From: Oceanihabitans sp. 2_MG-2023
GTDB lineage: Bacteria > Bacteroidota > Bacteroidia > Flavobacteriales > Flavobacteriaceae
DNA: 64,000 bases
Assembly: GCF_030547245.1 (NCBI RefSeq)
Contig: NZ_JAUOQT010000001.1
Span: 248,001 to 312,000 of the forward strand
Direction of reading: 5' to 3'
The notes beneath the pieces are model-generated. The model had not been told where the DNA came from. It saw only the letters and a list, made by a program, of their open reading frames with translations, and did no database searches. Of this stretch, positions 50,218 to 59,350 are shown in pieces. Position numbers and translations under genes: made by a program. Each line of letters starts with the position of its first letter. The first letter of the stretch is position 1.

Positions 50218-52401
50218 TTAAAATTTTAATGTAGCTCCTACTAAGAAATTTCTAGTTGCTTGGGGAAAATACCCAGCGCCTTCAATAGTTGTAGTTTCAT
50301 CAGGTACAGACCATGTATCATCATAGGTATAATAATAACCGTTTGAAATATACTCTTCATTAAAAATGTTATTCACTAATGCAGTAAATGTAATAGACTT
50401 TACAAATGCATTGGTTTCTAATTGATAAGAAACATTAAAATCATTTACAAAATAACTATCTAATTTAGATGCTTCACTATCTGTGTTTCCCATATATTGC
50501 TCTCCTACATGTTTAGTTAGCAGTGCTAAATCTAGGCCTTTAACTGGATTAAAAACTAAGGCATTAGACAACACAAACTCTGGTGAAAAAGAAATATTTG
50601 TTTTACCTAAATCTGTTAAAGCGCCATCTCTATTTACAACAGTACTTTTATTTTTGTTAGAACTAACAGTTATAGCAGGTTGTATGGTTAACCATTTTAA
50701 AGGTTTTACTGCTGCTTCTACTTCTAAACCTAATCGATAACTTTCACCACTATTAGTTCGTACTGGATTACCTACATTGTCTCTTTCTCCGGTAAGCACT
50801 AATTGTTCATTATACAACATGAAGTACAAATTGGTATTAATACTAAATATTTCTGATTGATGTCTGTAACCTAATTCAAAATCATTTAATTGTTCTGGGT
50901 TAACAGTTTCATTGTTTTCAAAATCATCTCTATTTGGTTCTCTATTCGCTCTTGCATAAGAGAAGTATACGTTATCGTTAGTATTTAATGCATAGGTAAT
51001 TCCTACTTTAGGATTGAAAAAACTATAATTTTCATCAATTAATAATGGAACTCTATCGGAGGTTAAACCTGTTGTTTTATAATCTACAAATCGCAATTGC
51101 AAATCTCCAAAAAGGGAAATTTTTTCATTTAATTTAACGGTTGCTTTAGTAAAAAAACTGGCATCTTTTTTCTTTCCATTTCCGTCGTAATAGGTATCGT
51201 TTATTTCACTAGAGCTTGCATTTCTTGCCCAAATAATTTCGCCAAAATGATCTCCATCATAAGCACTATAACTTCCGCCAAAAAGCATATCTAACTTATT
51301 TTTCTTAAAATTTGCATTGGCATTTACTACATAAAAATCGTTATCTAACCAACGTCTTCGTATTAAATCTGTCGTATTAATGGTTTCGCCTCCTAGAGTT
51401 ACTTCATCTAAATCATAATCGGCAAAATCTTCATCTTCTTTATACTGCTCAAAGTATCCTTTACCATGCGTATAATTTAAACTTAAATTTGTTGACCAAT
51501 AATTATTTATACGTTCTGTGTAATGTAACTGATAATGGTCTTGCTTGTAGTTATCTTCTTCATTTTCGTGAAAACGTGTATTGCCATTTTCATCGGTGTA
51601 CATTCCTGCAACATTGAATGTTCTGTCGTCTTTTAAAACATCTAAATCTTCCAAACCATACCAAGATTGATACGTTACTTCGTGACCACTAAATGTAATT
51701 GCTTTAATTAAGCGATTATCGTCAACATAAGCACCTTGTAAGAAATAAGATTTAAGATCTGAAGTAGCTCTATCTATATAACCATCTGATTTTATTTGCG
51801 ATAAGCGACCTGCAATTTCAAAATGATTATTTAATTTCCCTGTACTAAACTTCACGTTGTGTTTCCTGGTATTGTAACTACCAAAAGAATTAGAAATTTC
51901 ACCATTAGCAACTTCGGAAACAGCATCTGTTAACACATTAATACTTGCTCCAAAAGCACCAGAGCCATTGGTAGATGTACCAACACCACGTTGTAGCTGC
52001 AAACTTTCTACCGAGGAAGCAAAATCTCCTAGATTTACCCAAAAAGTCCCTAACGATTCTGCATCGTTATAAGGTATACCATTAAGTGTAATATTAGTAG
52101 ATTGTGCATTAATACCACGAACACGAATATACGTGTAACCAACTCCTGCTCCAGCATCTGTTGTGGTAACTACAGATGGTAAAAAATTAAGTAACACAGG
52201 AATATCTTGCCCTAAATTTCGCTTAGCAAGGTCTTCTTTACTAACATTTGTATGTGTAATTGGAGAAGTAGCATTTACACGAACGGCTTTTACTAGAACT
52301 TCATCTAGCTGCTCTGTTTTAGTAGAGTCTTGTTTTTTTTCTTGTGCATTAGCACGGACTGTTAACACTAAAAGTGTTAAAAAAAGAAATAGGTTTTTCA
52401 T
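50218..52401 (-). CDS. TonB-dependent receptor under TPP riboswitch control (putative thiamine transporter)
   Basis: 727 residues. Signal peptide ending RANAQ (about residue 20), a short TonB-box region (EQLDEVLVKAVRV), plug domain about 45-155 (VLLNFLPSVVTTTDAGAGVGYTYIRVRGINAQSTNITLNGIPYND), and a 22-strand type barrel to the final aromatic residue (FLVGATLKF). No N-terminal carboxypeptidase-like domain. Moves scarce ligands across the outer membrane. The leader contains a TPP riboswitch (52607-52757), so the ligand is very likely thiamine or a derivative; this matches the OMR1-type receptors described for Bacteroidota THI elements. Ends at a strong terminator. Confidence 0.9.
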   Translation of the reverse strand: MKNLFLFLTLLVLTVRANAQEKKQDSTKTEQLDEVLVKAVRVNATSPITHTNVSKEDLAKRNLGQDIPVLLNFLPSVVTTTDAGAGVGYTYIRVRGINAQSTNITLNGIPYNDAESLGTFWVNLGDFASSVESLQLQRGVGTSTNGSGAFGASINVLTDAVSEVANGEISNSFGSYNTRKHNVKFSTGKLNNHFEIAGRLSQIKSDGYIDRATSDLKSYFLQGAYVDDNRLIKAITFSGHEVTYQSWYGLEDLDVLKDDRTFNVAGMYTDENGNTRFHENEEDNYKQDHYQLHYTERINNYWSTNLSLNYTHGKGYFEQYKEDEDFADYDLDEVTLGGETINTTDLIRRRWLDNDFYVVNANANFKKNKLDMLFGGSYSAYDGDHFGEIIWARNASSSEINDTYYDGNGKKKDASFFTKATVKLNEKISLFGDLQLRFVDYKTTGLTSDRVPLLIDENYSFFNPKVGITYALNTNDNVYFSYARANREPNRDDFENNETVNPEQLNDFELGYRHQSEIFSINTNLYFMLYNEQLVLTGERDNVGNPVRTNSGESYRLGLEVEAAVKPLKWLTIQPAITVSSNKNKSTVVNRDGALTDLGKTNISFSPEFVLSNALVFNPVKGLDLALLTKHVGEQYMGNTDSEASKLDSYFVNDFNVSYQLETNAFVKSITFTALVNNIFNEEYISNGYYYTYDDTWSVPDETTTIEGAGYFPQATRNFLVGATLKF

Positions 52402-52606
52402 TACGATTATGTTTTATAATCGAATAAAAAGAGGTAATTATTCTTTTGTTATTAATTGATTTTGTTTGAGCGTATAAACGAATACGATATTAAAATGTTT
52501 CTTTTATTTTAAATCATTACATGCATAATTGTATACATAGTCAAATTTAGAATTAAAATTAACATGGTTAACTTTATCATACTCGCTAAAAATATCTTTA
52601 AGACAT

Positions 52607-52757
52607 TTTCTTAACGCTCGCATTCCTAAACAGCATTACCTGTTCTAGGTTCAATGGGTATGATCTCAGCCAAAAAGATTTTTGAATTTTGAATTTTTGA
52701 TTTATGATTTTTTGAATTTATGAATTCAACAATCTCCAATCCTTTAAGCACCCCTTT
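52607..52757 (-). promoter_or_regulatory. TPP (thiamine pyrophosphate) riboswitch
   Basis: On the minus strand: AAAAAAGGGGTGC (P2 5' side), an AT-rich extended P3 arm (AGATTGTTGAATT paired with AATTCAAAAATCT, one mismatch), GGCTGAGATCATACCC (the CUGAGA core and P2 3' side), then GAACCTAGAACAGGTAATGC and AGGAATGCG (P4/P5 and the conserved 3' end). All sequence-conserved parts of the THI element are present. TPP binding should reduce expression of the TonB-dependent receptor downstream. The 205 bp between it and the ATG hold the expression platform; I see no clear U-run terminator there, which suggests control of translation. Confidence 0.93.
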
Positions 52758-52770
52758 TTTGAGAACGATG

Positions 52771-52778
52771 CAAATGTA
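52771..52778 (-). promoter_or_regulatory. Putative -7 element TACATTTG of the riboswitch transcript
   Basis: Minus-strand match to TAnnTTTG, 16 bases before the GGGGTGC of the riboswitch, so the mRNA would begin just upstream of the aptamer. Confidence 0.5.
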
Positions 52779-52838
52779 ATGACGAATTATGAATTAATAA
52801 AGACTTCTTGTTACAATTTTATAAAAAAAAGAAAGTAT

Positions 52839-53246
52839 TTAATCTAGGTTTGGTTTTTTTCTGTTTGCTTTCTTTTCAGAATTTACGCGTTTAGATTTTA
52901 AGCGTTTTATTTTTACTGCTTTAGGGATCTTAGTTGGTTTTCTTCTTTTAGGAACCACTAATCCTTCTTTAATTATTTGAAGGAATCTTTTTATGGCTAT
53001 TTGTTTGTTTTTATGCTGACTTCTACTTTCTCCACATTGAAAAAGAAGTACATTTTCTTTTGTAAGTCTAGCATGTAGTTTTATTTTTAAACGTTGCTTT
53101 TGGTCTTCATTTAATACCTGAGAATCCTCTAAATTAAATGTAAGTTCTATTTTTGAAGAGACTTTATTTACATGTTGTCCTCCAGCACCAGAACTCCGTA
53201 TTGCTTTAAACCTTAATTCGTGTATTAACTGTTGTTCATGAAACAT
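52839..53246 (-). CDS. arfB: Peptidyl-tRNA hydrolase ArfB (ribosome rescue)
   Basis: 135 residues. Contains the release-factor GGQ loop SSGAGGQHVNKVSSKIEL and the basic C-terminal tail (RRKPTKIPKAVKIKRLKSKRVNSEKKANRKK) that enters the mRNA channel of stalled ribosomes. It frees nascent chains on non-stop complexes. Last gene of a seven-gene operon; its ATG overlaps the stop of the DUF4301 gene by one base. Confidence 0.93.
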   Translation of the reverse strand: MFHEQQLIHELRFKAIRSSGAGGQHVNKVSSKIELTFNLEDSQVLNEDQKQRLKIKLHARLTKENVLLFQCGESRSQHKNKQIAIKRFLQIIKEGLVVPKRRKPTKIPKAVKIKRLKSKRVNSEKKANRKKPNLD

Positions 53247-54802
53247 TAGTCGTTTATTTGATGTGCCGCTTTTAACAAGTCTGTTACAGTTTTTACTGGA
53301 TTAAAAGTAATTAGTGGTACTTCTACAAAAATGGTATTCCAATATGCCATAGCGCCATTCCAAAGTCCAGGAAGCTCTAAAGCTTTTAAGTCTTTTCCTG
53401 TTTTGGTTTTCATAGTAATAAACCCTGTTTTGGGGTCTACAAATTTATTCAAATCAAATTTTTCGCCTTTATAGTTTTTAATACCACAAACAAGGTCTAC
53501 AGGATTAAAATGGGTTGCATTTTTTAATATTCTTTTTTGTGTTTTATTCTTTTTATCAATTTGTGCAGACTCTACAATTTGAAGGGAGATATTGCCACTT
53601 TCATCTTTGATCCAAAATGGTCCTCCTCCTGGTTCTCCTTCATTTTTCACCATACCACAAATTCGAATTGGACGATTTAATTTTTCCTTTAGATATTCAA
53701 TTTGATAGGTTTCAGAATATTTTTCAAACTCTATATTAATTACAACATGTAGTTTATTCTTTAAAAATTCTGCTATACTAATTAGCTCTTTTTCCGAAAG
53801 GGTATTGCATTCTAATTTTTCTAAATAAGCAAATGCTTGTTCTTGTAATTCTATTAATAAACCACCAAGCATTTTCTTATATTCTGCGACTTCATTTTCA
53901 TATTTAGAAACTACTATATTATCTATATTTTTAATAAAAATAACATCGGCATCTAGTTTATTTAAGTTATTTAAAAGTGCGCCATGACCAGAAGGTCTAA
54001 ACAGCAAATCGCCATTATCTTCTCTAAAAGCATCATTTTTTGGTGTTACAGCAACGGTGTCTGTAGATTGGCATTGGTATGAAAATGATATATTAAATTT
54101 AGTCTTCGTTTTTGCTTTTACAATTTCTTCTACTCGTTTAAACTCAGCATCAAAAATATTTTTATGTTTTTCCGAAATGGTAAAATGTAAGTCTGCTTCA
54201 TTATTTGAAGAAGCATAAAGTGCGGATTCAAATAAATGTTCTTCAAAAGCTGTAGATACATGATCTTTATATTGATGAAAAGGTAGTAATCCTTTAGGAT
54301 AAAAACCATAATTAAGCTTTTCTGGTTCTAACATGGTTTTAATAAATTCTAACTTTTTTTCATCTTGCGTAAGGGAGTTAAAATTTGAGATAAGCGATTT
54401 AACTTTGTCAAGAACTTGTCCGTAAAAAGGAAACTTTTCTACACCTACCAAAAACAAAGATAACTCTGTAGCTTTATTTCTATTAATGTATGAATTAACA
54501 CTTTCTTTATTTACATCATATTCTTTTATAAATTGAAACAAGAATTTAAACATTCTTGTTGCAGCTCCAGAAGCAGGAACAAATTTAAGAATAGATTTCT
54601 GGTTTCTTTTATCTTCGAAAAATTGAATTGCTTTCTTTTTTTCTGTTTCCGATAACTTTAAAATACCATTACCAATATTTGCAGCATCTTTTAAATTTAC
54701 AAATGGAATTCCATTTTTAAAAAGTTGTATTTGAGCATTAACTTTTTCTAAAGTAAGGTTTTTAGATGCTATTTGTAGTTTATCTTTTTCTGTAAATTTC
54801 AC
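53246..54802 (-). CDS. DUF4301 family protein
   Basis: 518 residues. FVPASGAATRMFKFLF near residue 75, FTISEKHKNIF, VTPKNDAFREDNGDLLFRPSGHGALL near 250-270 and a second half with GGGPFWIKDESG. The pattern (GxxTRM..., RPGGHGAL-like) recalls nucleotidyltransferase-type sugar-nucleotide pyrophosphorylases, and DUF4301 is described only as unknown; enzymatic role not established. Overlaps the NadR-like kinase gene by 4 bp and arfB by 1 bp. Confidence 0.82.
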   Translation of the reverse strand: MKFTEKDKLQIASKNLTLEKVNAQIQLFKNGIPFVNLKDAANIGNGILKLSETEKKKAIQFFEDKRNQKSILKFVPASGAATRMFKFLFQFIKEYDVNKESVNSYINRNKATELSLFLVGVEKFPFYGQVLDKVKSLISNFNSLTQDEKKLEFIKTMLEPEKLNYGFYPKGLLPFHQYKDHVSTAFEEHLFESALYASSNNEADLHFTISEKHKNIFDAEFKRVEEIVKAKTKTKFNISFSYQCQSTDTVAVTPKNDAFREDNGDLLFRPSGHGALLNNLNKLDADVIFIKNIDNIVVSKYENEVAEYKKMLGGLLIELQEQAFAYLEKLECNTLSEKELISIAEFLKNKLHVVINIEFEKYSETYQIEYLKEKLNRPIRICGMVKNEGEPGGGPFWIKDESGNISLQIVESAQIDKKNKTQKRILKNATHFNPVDLVCGIKNYKGEKFDLNKFVDPKTGFITMKTKTGKDLKALELPGLWNGAMAYWNTIFVEVPLITFNPVKTVTDLLKAAHQIND

Positions 54803-55368
54803 TTCTTTCTATTTAATAATTCATCAATATGTTTTACTGCCATATCTAAACGAGTTTTCTTATCTCCTTTTAGCAAAACATAGGGTCTATTATATTTTAT
54901 TAATGTTTCTTGAAATGCATTGAACATACTTAAACGTTCTTCTGGTTTATCTCTTAAATCATCTGCTTCCCAAGGAGTGTCAATATACGTTAAAAAGTAT
55001 AAATCATATTTATTTTCTAGTGCATATTTTTCAAGAATAGGATCACAAATCCCTGAATAATAAGTTTCTGAATACACTTTAGTTTCCAGTAAATCGGTAT
55101 CGCAAATTAATACAGAATCTGTTTTTTTAGCTAAAGCATTTTCTAATTTAATTTGCCCAATAGCAATTGGCAGCAAATCTTTAGGCTCGCAAGTTTTACG
55201 TTCATTATTCCATTTATCTTGCAGGTATTCTCTAGCATATTCGGGTGTCCAGACCGAATTGTAATATCTTGCTAATTGTCTTGAAAGTGTTGTTTTTCCA
55301 GTCGATTCCGGTCCAAACAAAACTACTTTTATACAGTTACTTGCTTCTTGTTTAAGCTTTTCTTCCAT
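54799..55368 (-). CDS. NadR-like nucleoside kinase (AAA/P-loop)
   Basis: 189 residues. Walker A GPESTGKTT near 18-26, then LARYYNSVWTPEYAREYL, CDTDLLETKVYSETY and LRDKPEERLSMF, all as in the ribosylnicotinamide kinase domain of NadR. The NadR nucleotidyltransferase half is missing. The gene overlaps the PnuC-family transporter gene by 40 bp, fitting trapping of an imported substrate by phosphorylation. In NAD salvage the substrate is nicotinamide riboside; here the thiamine context makes thiamine or hydroxyethylthiazole a rival substrate (inferred). Confidence 0.85.
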   Translation of the reverse strand: MEEKLKQEASNCIKVVLFGPESTGKTTLSRQLARYYNSVWTPEYAREYLQDKWNNERKTCEPKDLLPIAIGQIKLENALAKKTDSVLICDTDLLETKVYSETYYSGICDPILEKYALENKYDLYFLTYIDTPWEADDLRDKPEERLSMFNAFQETLIKYNRPYVLLKGDKKTRLDMAVKHIDELLNRKK

Positions 55369-55967
55369 GCTAAATATCCTAAAATTGCTATAATTGTAAA
55401 TCCAAAATACTGAAAACTGGTAAAGGTAAATCCTTTATAAAAATACAAAGGAATAGAAATAATATCACCAATAATCCAGTAGATCCAGTTTTCTATTTTA
55501 CGTTTTGCCATAAGCCACATTCCTACAAAAAACACAGCTGTTGTAACGGTATCTATGTATGCTACCCAACCATTCCATTTATCAAACGTTTTATAAATAA
55601 TAAATACAAAAACTAATGTTGCGAAAAAGATAGCTACACTTATTTTTTTTTCTTTATTGGTCGTTCTAGAAATTGGAGTAACATGACTAGCATCTACTTT
55701 TCGTGTCCAAATATACCAACCATATACACTCATAATAAAGTAATATGCATTAATCATCATGTCGCCTAAAAGTTGCCATTTTAATAATAAATACACGAAT
55801 ATACAGGTGCTTACCATTCCTGTTGGAAATACTAAAATATTGTTTTTTCTAGAAAACCAAACCGATAGAAATCCAAAAACAACTGCAACAATTTCTAATA
55901 CAATATCTAGTGTTTGGTAATCGGCATACTGCCCAAAAAGGAAATCAAAAATGTGGTTCATAATCAC
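55329..55967 (-). CDS. PnuC-family vitamin transporter (possible PnuT)
   Basis: 212 residues, about seven membrane helices. Family motifs: VFGFLSVWFSRKNNILVFPTGMVSTCIFVYLL, YGWYIWTRK, and WGxxDxxxT-like WNGWVAYIDTVTTAVFF followed by KRKIENWIYWIIGDIISIPLYFYKG. PnuC moves nicotinamide riboside, PnuT thiamine, PnuX riboflavin by facilitated diffusion. The upstream gene (YkoF-like thiamine-binding protein, 23-bp overlap) and the nearby TPP riboswitch favour the thiamine type; residues that decide specificity cannot be judged by eye. Confidence 0.88.
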   Translation of the reverse strand: MIMNHIFDFLFGQYADYQTLDIVLEIVAVVFGFLSVWFSRKNNILVFPTGMVSTCIFVYLLLKWQLLGDMMINAYYFIMSVYGWYIWTRKVDASHVTPISRTTNKEKKISVAIFFATLVFVFIIYKTFDKWNGWVAYIDTVTTAVFFVGMWLMAKRKIENWIYWIIGDIISIPLYFYKGFTFTSFQYFGFTIIAILGYLAWKKSLNKKQVTV

Positions 55968-56205
55968 TTCTATTGGTTTTAACTACCTTCATGGTTAGTA
56001 CCGAAATATCTACTTCTTGAAAAGAACGTTTTATCTCTTGTGTTAAGAAAGGCATCAAGGTATCGTAATCTCCAAAAATTTGTGTGCTTAACGGATTTTC
56101 TAAAACCTTAAATTCAGAATCTCGTAAAGCTTTAATAAATTGAATTACATGTTTTTCATAATCATCCTGTAAAGGAGAAAGAGTAAGATCTACAGATATT
56201 TCCAT
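55945..56205 (-). CDS. YkoF/MTH1187-family thiamine-binding protein
   Basis: 86 residues. MEISVDLTLSPLQDDYEKHVIQFIKALR ... ENPLSTQIFGDYDTLMPFLTQEIKRSF is the small ferredoxin-like fold of the MTH1187/YkoF family; YkoF binds thiamine. Single domain, cytoplasmic. It overlaps the PnuC-family gene by 23 bp, so both are translated together; this is one of the reasons to link that transporter to thiamine. Confidence 0.8.
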   Translation of the reverse strand: MEISVDLTLSPLQDDYEKHVIQFIKALRDSEFKVLENPLSTQIFGDYDTLMPFLTQEIKRSFQEVDISVLTMKVVKTNRSDYEPHF

Positions 56206-56212
56206 ATGTTTT

Positions 56213-56935
56213 TTATTTTTTTAATTGATTAAAGAAGGATTCATCTTCTTCAAAAGCTGTACCAATAACTACCAAATCGGCTCCTGCTTGGTATGCTGCA
56301 TCTAATTGTTCTTTACTACGTATTCCTCCTCCAACAATTATTGGAATTCCCAATTCTTCTTTTACTGCGCTAATAATAGAAGAAGGAATCGCTTTTTTAG
56401 CGCCACTTCCTGCTTCCAAATAAATAAGTCGCATACCAAGTAACTCGCCTGCTTTTGCTGTATCTACAATAGCTTGTTCATTATTAATTGGCATTGGTGC
56501 TGTTTGCGTAACTCGCTGTACAGCTGTTTCTTTTCCGTTTTCTATTAGCAAATAACCTGTTGGTATTACTTCTAAATTGGTATTTCTTAATTTAGAAACT
56601 GAGGCTATATGTTTTCCTATTAAATATTCCGGATTTCTTCCAGACAACAAAGACAAGTACAATATAGAATTAGCTTCATTGGTAATTTGCGATATATCTC
56701 CAGGGAATAAAACGATTGGTAAATTGCTATGCTTTTTTAATGCTATAACAAGGTTTTCGGTTGCAAATTCTTCCACAGTACTACCTCCAACAAAAATATG
56801 TGTCGCAATCGAATTGTTTAATTTTTGCATAAAACCATCTAAGCTTTCTGGTTTTGCTTTATCTGGATCCATTAAAACAGCTAGCAGTTTTTCACGCTTC
56901 TCAACAGCAGATAATATGTTTGGGTATAACTTCAT
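56213..56935 (-). CDS. Geranylgeranylglyceryl/heptaprenylglyceryl phosphate synthase
   Basis: 240 residues, TIM-barrel. LLAVLMDPDKAKPE (Mg-binding Asp), IFVGGSTVEE, ILYLSLLSGRNPEYLIGKH, IPTGYLLIENG, YLEAGSGA and IIVGGGIRSKEQLDAAYQAGADLVVIGTAFEE, the phosphate-binding end. Transfers a prenyl group to sn-glycerol-1-phosphate, the first step of archaeal-type ether lipids; bacterial members of the Bacteroidota branch exist, but their product's use is unclear. Abuts the Sfp-type gene with no gap. A UbiA-family gene at 37.1 kb might act next (inferred). Confidence 0.9.
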   Translation of the reverse strand: MKLYPNILSAVEKREKLLAVLMDPDKAKPESLDGFMQKLNNSIATHIFVGGSTVEEFATENLVIALKKHSNLPIVLFPGDISQITNEANSILYLSLLSGRNPEYLIGKHIASVSKLRNTNLEVIPTGYLLIENGKETAVQRVTQTAPMPINNEQAIVDTAKAGELLGMRLIYLEAGSGAKKAIPSSIISAVKEELGIPIIVGGGIRSKEQLDAAYQAGADLVVIGTAFEEDESFFNQLKK

Positions 56936-57565
56936 TTAGGCAGGCAATACATAAGCACAAGTAAAACCTTCAAACTCAAAAAAAGTAGTTTGGTATCTGT
57001 GTTTTGTTTCTTCATAATCAATCCAAGCAATTGTGGCAGCTTCTTCTACAGTAAATGGAATTACTAGAGTATGCTTCAAAAAACTTAAACCTGGAGTAGC
57101 AAACAATTTATATAAAGATTCTTTTATACACCAAATAACAGTTAGTTTATTAATGTAATTATCTGCCTTCTTATCTAAATAAATGTTTTCATAATCTAAA
57201 AACTTATGCGCGATAACTCCAATTTTCTCGCGTTGTTTTTCAATATCAATACCAACAACAGCATCACTTACTACAACTGCCGAAAACGTAAAAGAATGCG
57301 TTATAGAAATATGCTTACCATCTTTTAAATGCGGCTTACCATTTTCGTCATACATTAAATCTTGATCGGTATAACCAAAAGCTGCAAGTAAATGGCGAAC
57401 ACTTAGAAAACCGCGTCTATGCAGTTCACTTTTCATACTCAAAACGCGTTTCATATTCTCTGGTTTTAAAGTAATAGGATCCAGCAAATCTGTATAAGAT
57501 TCTGTAATCTTCCAGATTTTAACAGTAGTTTGTGAGTTTGGTGTAAGAGTTTTATAAATAGGCAT
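56936..57565 (-). CDS. 4'-phosphopantetheinyl transferase superfamily protein
   Basis: 209 residues, two-domain Sfp type. ISITHSFTFSAVVVSDAVVGIDIEKQREK has the Mg-binding VGIDIE, and WCIKESLYKLFATPGLSF the WxxKEAxxK motif. It activates acyl or peptidyl carrier proteins by attaching phosphopantetheine. Whether it serves the fatty-acid ACP or a specialised carrier is unknown; no such carrier is in the window. First gene of the seven-gene operon. Confidence 0.9.
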   Translation of the reverse strand: MPIYKTLTPNSQTTVKIWKITESYTDLLDPITLKPENMKRVLSMKSELHRRGFLSVRHLLAAFGYTDQDLMYDENGKPHLKDGKHISITHSFTFSAVVVSDAVVGIDIEKQREKIGVIAHKFLDYENIYLDKKADNYINKLTVIWCIKESLYKLFATPGLSFLKHTLVIPFTVEEAATIAWIDYEETKHRYQTTFFEFEGFTCAYVLPA

Positions 57566-59150: not shown

Positions 59151-59186
59151 GCAATCTGTTTTTGGTAGAAAAAACCAAAAACAACC

Positions 59187-59250
59187 AGGCTTTACACTAT
59201 ATCTTTTTTTCGTACCTCAAAAAAGGATGCCGTTGCAATCCTTATTGCGG
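59187..59250 (+). repeat. Dispersed repeat family 1, copy D
   Basis: AGGCTTTACACTATATC, TTTTTTTCGTACC, AAAAAAGGATGCCGTTGC, AATCCTTATTGC: same ends and centre as copy A (1804-1917), left end shortened. The rest of 59251-59350 shows nothing I can name. Confidence 0.65.
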
Positions 59251-59350
59251 ACTACCCTTATACAGCCATTGCTAGAAGTAACAAAGTACAATCTGTTGGT
59301 TTTATTTTTCGTTTTTAAATAAGTACCTTCACACTTTAAATATAAAAAAC

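Follow-up and report, generated by a model that had tools for sequence, protein, structure and literature searches.

Does a gene pair that carries the names of NAD metabolism serve another vitamin in marine flavobacteria? The question is raised by a locus of Oceanihabitans sp. 2_MG-2023 (Flavobacteriaceae), which lies in a stretch of 64,000 nucleotides called here the window (contig NZ_JAUOQT010000001.1, positions 248,001 to 312,000 of the forward strand). The minus strand there carries the gene of a PnuC-family transporter, a predicted PnuT (55329 to 55967), which overlaps the gene of a NadR-type P-loop kinase, a predicted thiamine kinase referred to as KIN (54799 to 55368). A thiamine pyrophosphate (TPP) riboswitch aptamer with a long P3 insert (52606 to 52765) and the gene of a TonB-dependent receptor (50218 to 52401) stand further downstream. 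The first-pass annotation of this DNA had proposed that the PnuC protein and the kinase act on thiamine. Comparative tests support this proposal, above all the absence of thiamine pyrophosphokinase (TPK) from genomes in which ThiL is kept, and from them we infer a thiamine salvage locus in which the receptor and PnuT would import thiamine, KIN would make thiamine monophosphate (TMP) and ThiL would make TPP. We put the probability of this reading at about 0.83.

The proposed mechanism is as follows. When TPP is scarce, the riboswitch would permit synthesis of the receptor, which would carry thiamine through the outer membrane. Acting as PnuT, the relative of PnuC would be an inner-membrane thiamine channel. 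Transport by PnuT is reportedly facilitated diffusion. KIN would then probably trap the thiamine entering in this way by phosphorylating it to TMP, and ThiL, whose gene lies outside the locus, would phosphorylate TMP to TPP.

The distribution of thiamine genes was surveyed in 120 genomes of the same family, one per genus and the own genome included, which were searched for TPK (PF04263), KIN, ThiL, ThiC and ThiE/TenI. KIN was found in 115 of them and TPK in 8, ThiL scored over its cut-off in 118, ThiC was present in 25 and ThiE/TenI over cut-off in 38. KIN is present in 110 of the 112 genomes that lack TPK. All 95 genomes without ThiC have KIN or TPK, and the only two genomes with neither kinase (G020 and G079) are both ThiC-positive. 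It was found that 77 genomes have ThiL in the absence of ThiC, ThiE and TPK, and KIN is present in every one of them. These 77 genomes have no other source of TMP for ThiL among the genes searched, a set that did not include ThiK-type kinases. ThiE/TenI was not over cut-off in 82 genomes, and 80 of these have kept ThiL. Retention of ThiL in genomes without ThiE therefore points to TMP, and not TPP, as the product of KIN. With 95 of 120 genera lacking ThiC, most of them seem to depend on vitamin B1 or a precursor from outside.

A check of the own genome for thiamine genes, suggested in the first-pass annotation, agreed with the thiamine proposal. KIN and ThiL are present, and the profile search detected neither ThiC nor TPK (PF04263), thus no TPK of the Bacteroides type. 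A lone ThiE/TenI-family gene (L276:8991-9635) stands at 122 bits over the Pfam cut-off and is below the NCBIfam cut-off for ThiE (117.5 vs 145.1 bits). No other thiamine gene was recognised among its neighbours. The gene is possibly decaying or TenI-like.

Replacement of KIN by TPK was seen in relatives. Five of the 120 genomes are without KIN and three of these have TPK. The anti-correlation of KIN and TPK has a Fisher p of 0.0019, uncorrected for kinship among the 120 genomes. In one of the genomes without KIN (G016) a riboswitch, a receptor, a PnuC and a TPK follow each other in a row, which is the arrangement of OMthi-pnuT-tnr3 in Bacteroides as given in the available part of PMC5613172. 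Judged by gene order, TPK takes the place of KIN in this genome. The window receptor is 41% identical to the receptor of this row (L157). A second receptor-PnuC-TPK row was found in another family (G346, L268), where no riboswitch motif was seen.

A wider sample, 247 genomes of the phylum, was also analysed. Sixty-five matched the kinase profile and 121 have TPK. Where tblastn pieces were used for profiles, those with less than 80% coverage or with stops were excluded, and at most 100 were taken per profile. Eight of the 65 kinase matches were removed, of which two carry an adenylyltransferase motif (G153, G306), two were judged by frame length only (G132, G249) and four were unexamined (G215, G252, G299, G347). 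The remaining 57 were counted as standalone, on the basis of 36 kinase regions that were read and of frame length for the others. Standalone KIN thus occurs in 57 of the 247 genomes. KIN and TPK are found together in 12 genomes, which belong to a single genus; outside that genus 45 genomes have KIN, 107 have TPK and none has both. ThiC is missing from 160 genomes of the sample and 143 of these have KIN or TPK. Among the 81 genomes with neither kinase 64 have ThiC, and two genera account for 53 of these 64. The genomes of the sample are therefore far from independent of each other, and a Fisher value calculated on them overstates their independence.

The riboswitch links the locus to thiamine by a separate line of evidence. 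A clear TPP riboswitch had been said to lead the receptor gene. The element does lead the receptor and, judged by its score against relatives, it is real; it is below the Rfam cut-off, however, and it does not stand before the YkoF-PnuC-kinase operon. Rfam did not call it at the gathering threshold (23.2 bits vs a cut-off of 54.3, E 0.35) because of the long insert in P3. With loose Rfam settings the element was aligned across the whole RF00059 model, with a stretch of 69 bases inside P3. Relatives have the same core at the same place, with P3 short or long. A covariance model, R1, was built from short-P3 elements of relatives (80 found, 70 distinct, 55 aligned for the model), the window element being excluded. 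R1 finds the window element at 66.2 bits (E 2.3e-18), its sole match in the genome with E <= 0.001 among the matches listed. The conserved aptamer core is accompanied by helices with covariation: in R1 changes on both sides were observed in 5 of 15 pairs, and compensatory changes occur in P3 and P5.

The R1 search across genomes, whose counts refer to 150 matches listed, placed a TPP riboswitch within 10 kb downstream of KIN and on the same strand in 101 of the 115 KIN genomes. Among the same matches, 11 of the other 14 genomes have the switch on another contig only, two have it far away (46 kb and 235 kb) and one has none. By a rough estimate, such proximity would arise by chance in roughly 0.2% of cases per genome. 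In the window and in relatives the receptor stands directly behind the TPP element. The sequence TAnnTTTG is the -7 box of Bacteroidetes promoters. Of 118 elements, 114 have such a box no more than 36 bases upstream of the GGGGUG core, and in 110 of them the distance is 12 to 16 bases; among 2360 random windows 56 have one. With a promoter box just before the aptamer, the receptor transcript seems to start at the aptamer, from the switch's own promoter, and the switch seems to govern the receptor only and not the YkoF-PnuC-kinase operon. Riboswitch control of the kinase was considered and rejected, as the promoter box directly precedes the aptamer and the switch lies downstream of the kinase. 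In Seonamhaeicola algicola a second TPP core motif was seen behind the receptor (L050:15277).

Membership of the channel in the PnuC fold family is supported by a match to PF04973 at 184 bits. Riboswitch class is stated to be a predictor of PnuC specificity in the available part of PMC7749635. PnuC trees were built from chosen rows, 65 and then 36; the long-branch row L254 was omitted from the second tree, and the first does not retain the own genome's second PnuC. The phylogeny that the first-pass annotation had called for, in its 36-row form, placed the window PnuC in a group of 21 kinase-linked and two TPK-linked PnuCs (L157, L268) with support 100/94, the thiamine references being TPK-linked by context and not experimentally proven PnuT. 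Five NadR-linked PnuCs and the solved nicotinamide riboside (NR) transporter, which has a long branch, fall outside this group. TIGR01528 labels the window channel an NR transporter; a TPK-linked PnuC gets the same label, and therefore the name carries little weight. The second, distant PnuC of the own genome (L002, C2:11892-12419) stands directly behind typA, with no kinase beside it in the 3.5 kb read. The genome G001 has this locus and, separately, an operon of receptor, PnuC and full-length NadR (L165:8512-12126). This operon is apparently a TonB-dependent NR uptake system, and G001 would thus allow a B1 and a B3 system to be contrasted within one genome.

The kinase has 189 amino acids and only the kinase half of NadR was matched in it (AAA_28/PF13521, 142.7 bits). 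TIGR01526 is covered from positions 164 to 320 of 325 only, at 108.8 bits vs a cut-off of 341, and profile searches found no nicotinamide mononucleotide (NMN) adenylyltransferase domain, so the earlier description of a NadR kinase half without its nucleotidyltransferase half was borne out. The predicted structure (pLDDT 93.9) has NadR structures as its best Foldseek matches (8x7f, TM 0.84), followed by thymidylate kinases. Against viral models the matches are named NadR-like and thymidylate kinase only and have no bearing on the substrate. In a tree of 69 chosen kinases, the kinases of the locus and standalone ones of related families of the class are split from NadR kinase domains, the solved ones included, with moderate support (82/86). 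A comparison of residues for NR and thiamine gave one candidate difference, Q72 of the kinase being His in 6 of 8 NadR. Single stop codons were noted in the listed kinase frame or match of six genomes (G103, G086, G027, G022, G052, G067); they may reflect decay, sequence error or a match overrunning the gene end. The kinase of G191 has an aldose 1-epimerase domain fused to it (L258:7566-9059).

Other substrates and products have to be weighed against this evidence. It could be supposed that PnuC imports NR and that the kinase makes NMN, the thiamine receptor being an accidental neighbour. The nearest solved relatives are indeed NadR kinases and an NR transporter, and TIGR01528 names the channel accordingly. 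The name is shared by a TPK-linked PnuC, however, and the position of the window PnuC in the tree, the lack of the NMN adenylyltransferase half, the linkage to the riboswitch in 101 of 115 genomes (among the matches listed), the mutual exclusion of KIN and TPK outside one genus of the 247-genome sample and the presence of this locus beside a receptor-PnuC-NadR operon in G001 all make NR salvage very improbable. A kinase acting on a thiamine precursor, either hydroxymethylpyrimidine or the thiazole alcohol, would fit the same riboswitch neighbourhood, and many auxotrophs salvage such precursors according to the available part of PMC6593275. We give this only a slim chance, since the 82 genomes without ThiE/TenI over cut-off have no known route joining the phosphorylated precursors, and KIN is nevertheless present in all 77 genomes that have ThiL without ThiC, ThiE and TPK.

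The kinase could also be a pyrophosphokinase that converts thiamine to TPP in one step. That TPK occupies its place in relatives would agree with this, and the argument from ThiL is weakened by G016, where ThiL stands in the genome beside TPK. In the 80 ThiE-less genomes that keep ThiL, however, such an enzyme would leave ThiL without a substrate, and both NadR and thymidylate kinases transfer a single phosphate. A one-step reaction is thus highly unlikely in our view.

A number of observations weigh against salvage of thiamine by way of TMP. The nearest solved relatives of the kinase, by sequence and by fold, are NR kinases, and five standalone kinases of more distant groups join NadR in the kinase tree. 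Six kinase-linked PnuCs of other families are outside the main PnuC group, and one TPK-linked PnuC (L206) is an exception to the grouping in that it joins a NadR-linked one. The YkoF-PnuC-KIN operon itself is not behind a riboswitch. KIN and TPK coexist in 5 of the 120 family genomes and in the 12 genomes of one genus in the phylum sample, and 17 of the 160 ThiC-less phylum genomes have neither. G016 keeps ThiL beside TPK, and no ThiE or ThiC was found in this genome, which is 91% complete. Another thiamine kinase is possible in these genomes, ThiK, ThiD, ThiM and TenA being outside the set of genes searched, and TMP or TPP may be imported.

The locus is conserved in relatives. Eighty named loci, the best 80 of 194 found by the kinase and all flavobacterial by title, were compared. 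pnuC is present in 79 (the one exception, L019, lies at a contig end), the receptor in 69, the YkoF-like gene in 66, DUF4301 in 65 and arfB in 55. The core motif of the riboswitch was seen in 70, and four of the ten loci without it are ended by a contig end. Gene order is mostly kept in 70 further regions, most of which were selected because their kinases are divergent (down to 44% identity). At the locus, DUF4301 and arfB are both missing from seven genomes of 1.3 to 1.9 Mb (L101, L102, L136, L141, L148, L149, L150); in these the riboswitch and the receptor follow the kinase and the core motif begins within about 370 bases. DUF4301 is retained in other small genomes (G035, G046, G064, G112).

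The order of the elements in the window, from high to low coordinates, is YkoF-like gene, pnuC, kinase, DUF4301, arfB, TPP riboswitch and receptor. The gene content first annotated was found in place, and every neighbouring gene pair from YkoF to ArfB overlaps by 1 to 40 bases. The receptor matches the Pfam families TonB_dep_Rec and Plug and is a predicted outer-membrane thiamine receptor of the OMthi/Omr1 type. The small YkoF/Thiamine_BP-like protein (55945 to 56205, minus strand) scores 24.1 bits with PF01910, below the cut-off of 24.9; this cut-off is exceeded by 7 of the 10 YkoF-like proteins of relatives that were scanned. It probably binds thiamine. The ribosome rescue hydrolase ArfB (52839 to 53246, minus strand; NCBIfam NF006718 at 130.4 bits, cut-off 100) is probably a co-transcribed passenger. 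Upstream of the YkoF-like gene are two more open reading frames (ORFs) that nearly abut (56213-56935 and 56936-57565), which we take to resemble a PcrB-type synthase and a phosphopantetheinyl transferase; the transcription unit may therefore extend beyond YkoF-to-arfB. Two Flavo-1 small RNAs above the Rfam cut-off were also found in the window, both on the minus strand (1822-1916 and 59179-59257).

The DUF4301 gene (53246 to 54802, minus strand; PF14134 at 736 bits) had been thought to belong perhaps to the same pathway. The case for this is weak. The gene is not beside the kinase in 15 of the 80 named loci, one of them (L085) ended by a contig end, and it is absent from this place in several streamlined genomes. 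In the phylum sample DUF4301 occurs in 43 of 247 genomes. Eight of these are of the same class but not of the same order, and in them the contig with DUF4301 is not the one with the kinase (or NadR) or the TPK match. The structure model (pLDDT 92.2) was matched by Foldseek to UDP-N-acetylglucosamine (UAP1) and UDP-glucose pyrophosphorylases (best E 3e-9, TM about 0.5), and its fold looks like that of a UDP-sugar pyrophosphorylase, which would offer a testable function for an unnamed family. One point in favour of the pathway claim comes from the large genus g121, in which a single ORF of about 710 codons encodes both the kinase and DUF4301 (L263, 8473-10686; L264; L265). Frame lengths suggest the same for all 12 kinase-bearing members sampled, and this genus also has TPK. 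The fusion is not enough to count DUF4301 in the pathway. Given the fusion with an aldose epimerase in G191, joining of the kinase to the next gene may follow simply from loss of a stop. A role of DUF4301 as a thiamine enzyme was considered for the single ORF and set aside on the strength of that epimerase fusion, the losses and the distant placement. DUF4301 is dispensable and not a core part of the pathway.

The thiamine reading is in line with published data, cited here from the parts of the papers that were available. In Baltic Bacteroidetes omr1 and pnuC are the dominant B1 transcripts, and the same bacteria also expressed genes for thiazole and B1 synthesis (PMC12442306). A recent ocean study reported ThiL and a receptor in bins of Flavobacteriales and Cytophagales that lack key biosynthesis genes, and the available part of it does not name an enzyme for the conversion of imported thiamine to TMP in those bins (PMC12236431). 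A literature search, which most subscription journals lay beyond and which saw some sources only in part, found no NadR-type kinase assigned to thiamine; an earlier prediction may exist in a comparative thiamine-gene study of 2002 or in regulon databases. It is likely, in our judgement, that the standalone NadR-type kinase is a newly assigned class of thiamine kinase, non-homologous to ThiK and TPK, which closes the step from thiamine to TMP in almost all Flavobacteriaceae as well as in related families of the class, mostly without ThiC, and that the pairs of PnuC and 'NadR-like ATPase' found there serve salvage of vitamin B1 and not B3. If this is true, the vitamin B1 kinase that is missing in a large bacterial family may be encoded here. 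A gene named after NAD metabolism would be reassigned and its annotation corrected in many genomes, a marker gene for B1 salvage would be gained, and a kinase family would have switched vitamins along with its partner channel.

The locus can be compared with several known systems. Like the thiamine uptake operon OMthi-pnuT-tnr3 of Bacteroides, as described in the available part of PMC5613172, it combines a TPP riboswitch, a TonB-dependent receptor, a PnuC-family channel and a kinase; unlike that operon, its kinase is a NadR-type P-loop enzyme and not a TPK, a YkoF-like gene is added, and the switch, which lies behind the kinase operon, precedes the receptor alone. With PnuC-NadR salvage of NR the locus shares the channel fold, the kinase fold and the gene order channel-kinase, whereas the NMN adenylyltransferase half is missing here, a TPP riboswitch is linked, and G001 has its full-length NadR operon elsewhere. 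The YkoF-like protein resembles YkoF/Thiamine_BP over profile positions 1-74 of 92. YkoF is coupled to an ECF-type transporter, and the protein here instead consists of one short domain and goes with a PnuC-kinase pair. E. coli converts thiamine to TMP and TMP to TPP by ThiK and ThiL, and the fold of ThiK is aminoglycoside-phosphotransferase-like. The predicted reaction of the window kinase is the same as in this route, whose two enzymes are also named in the available part of PMC12236431, but its fold is that of NadR and thymidylate kinase, and it would carry out this step without being homologous to ThiK.

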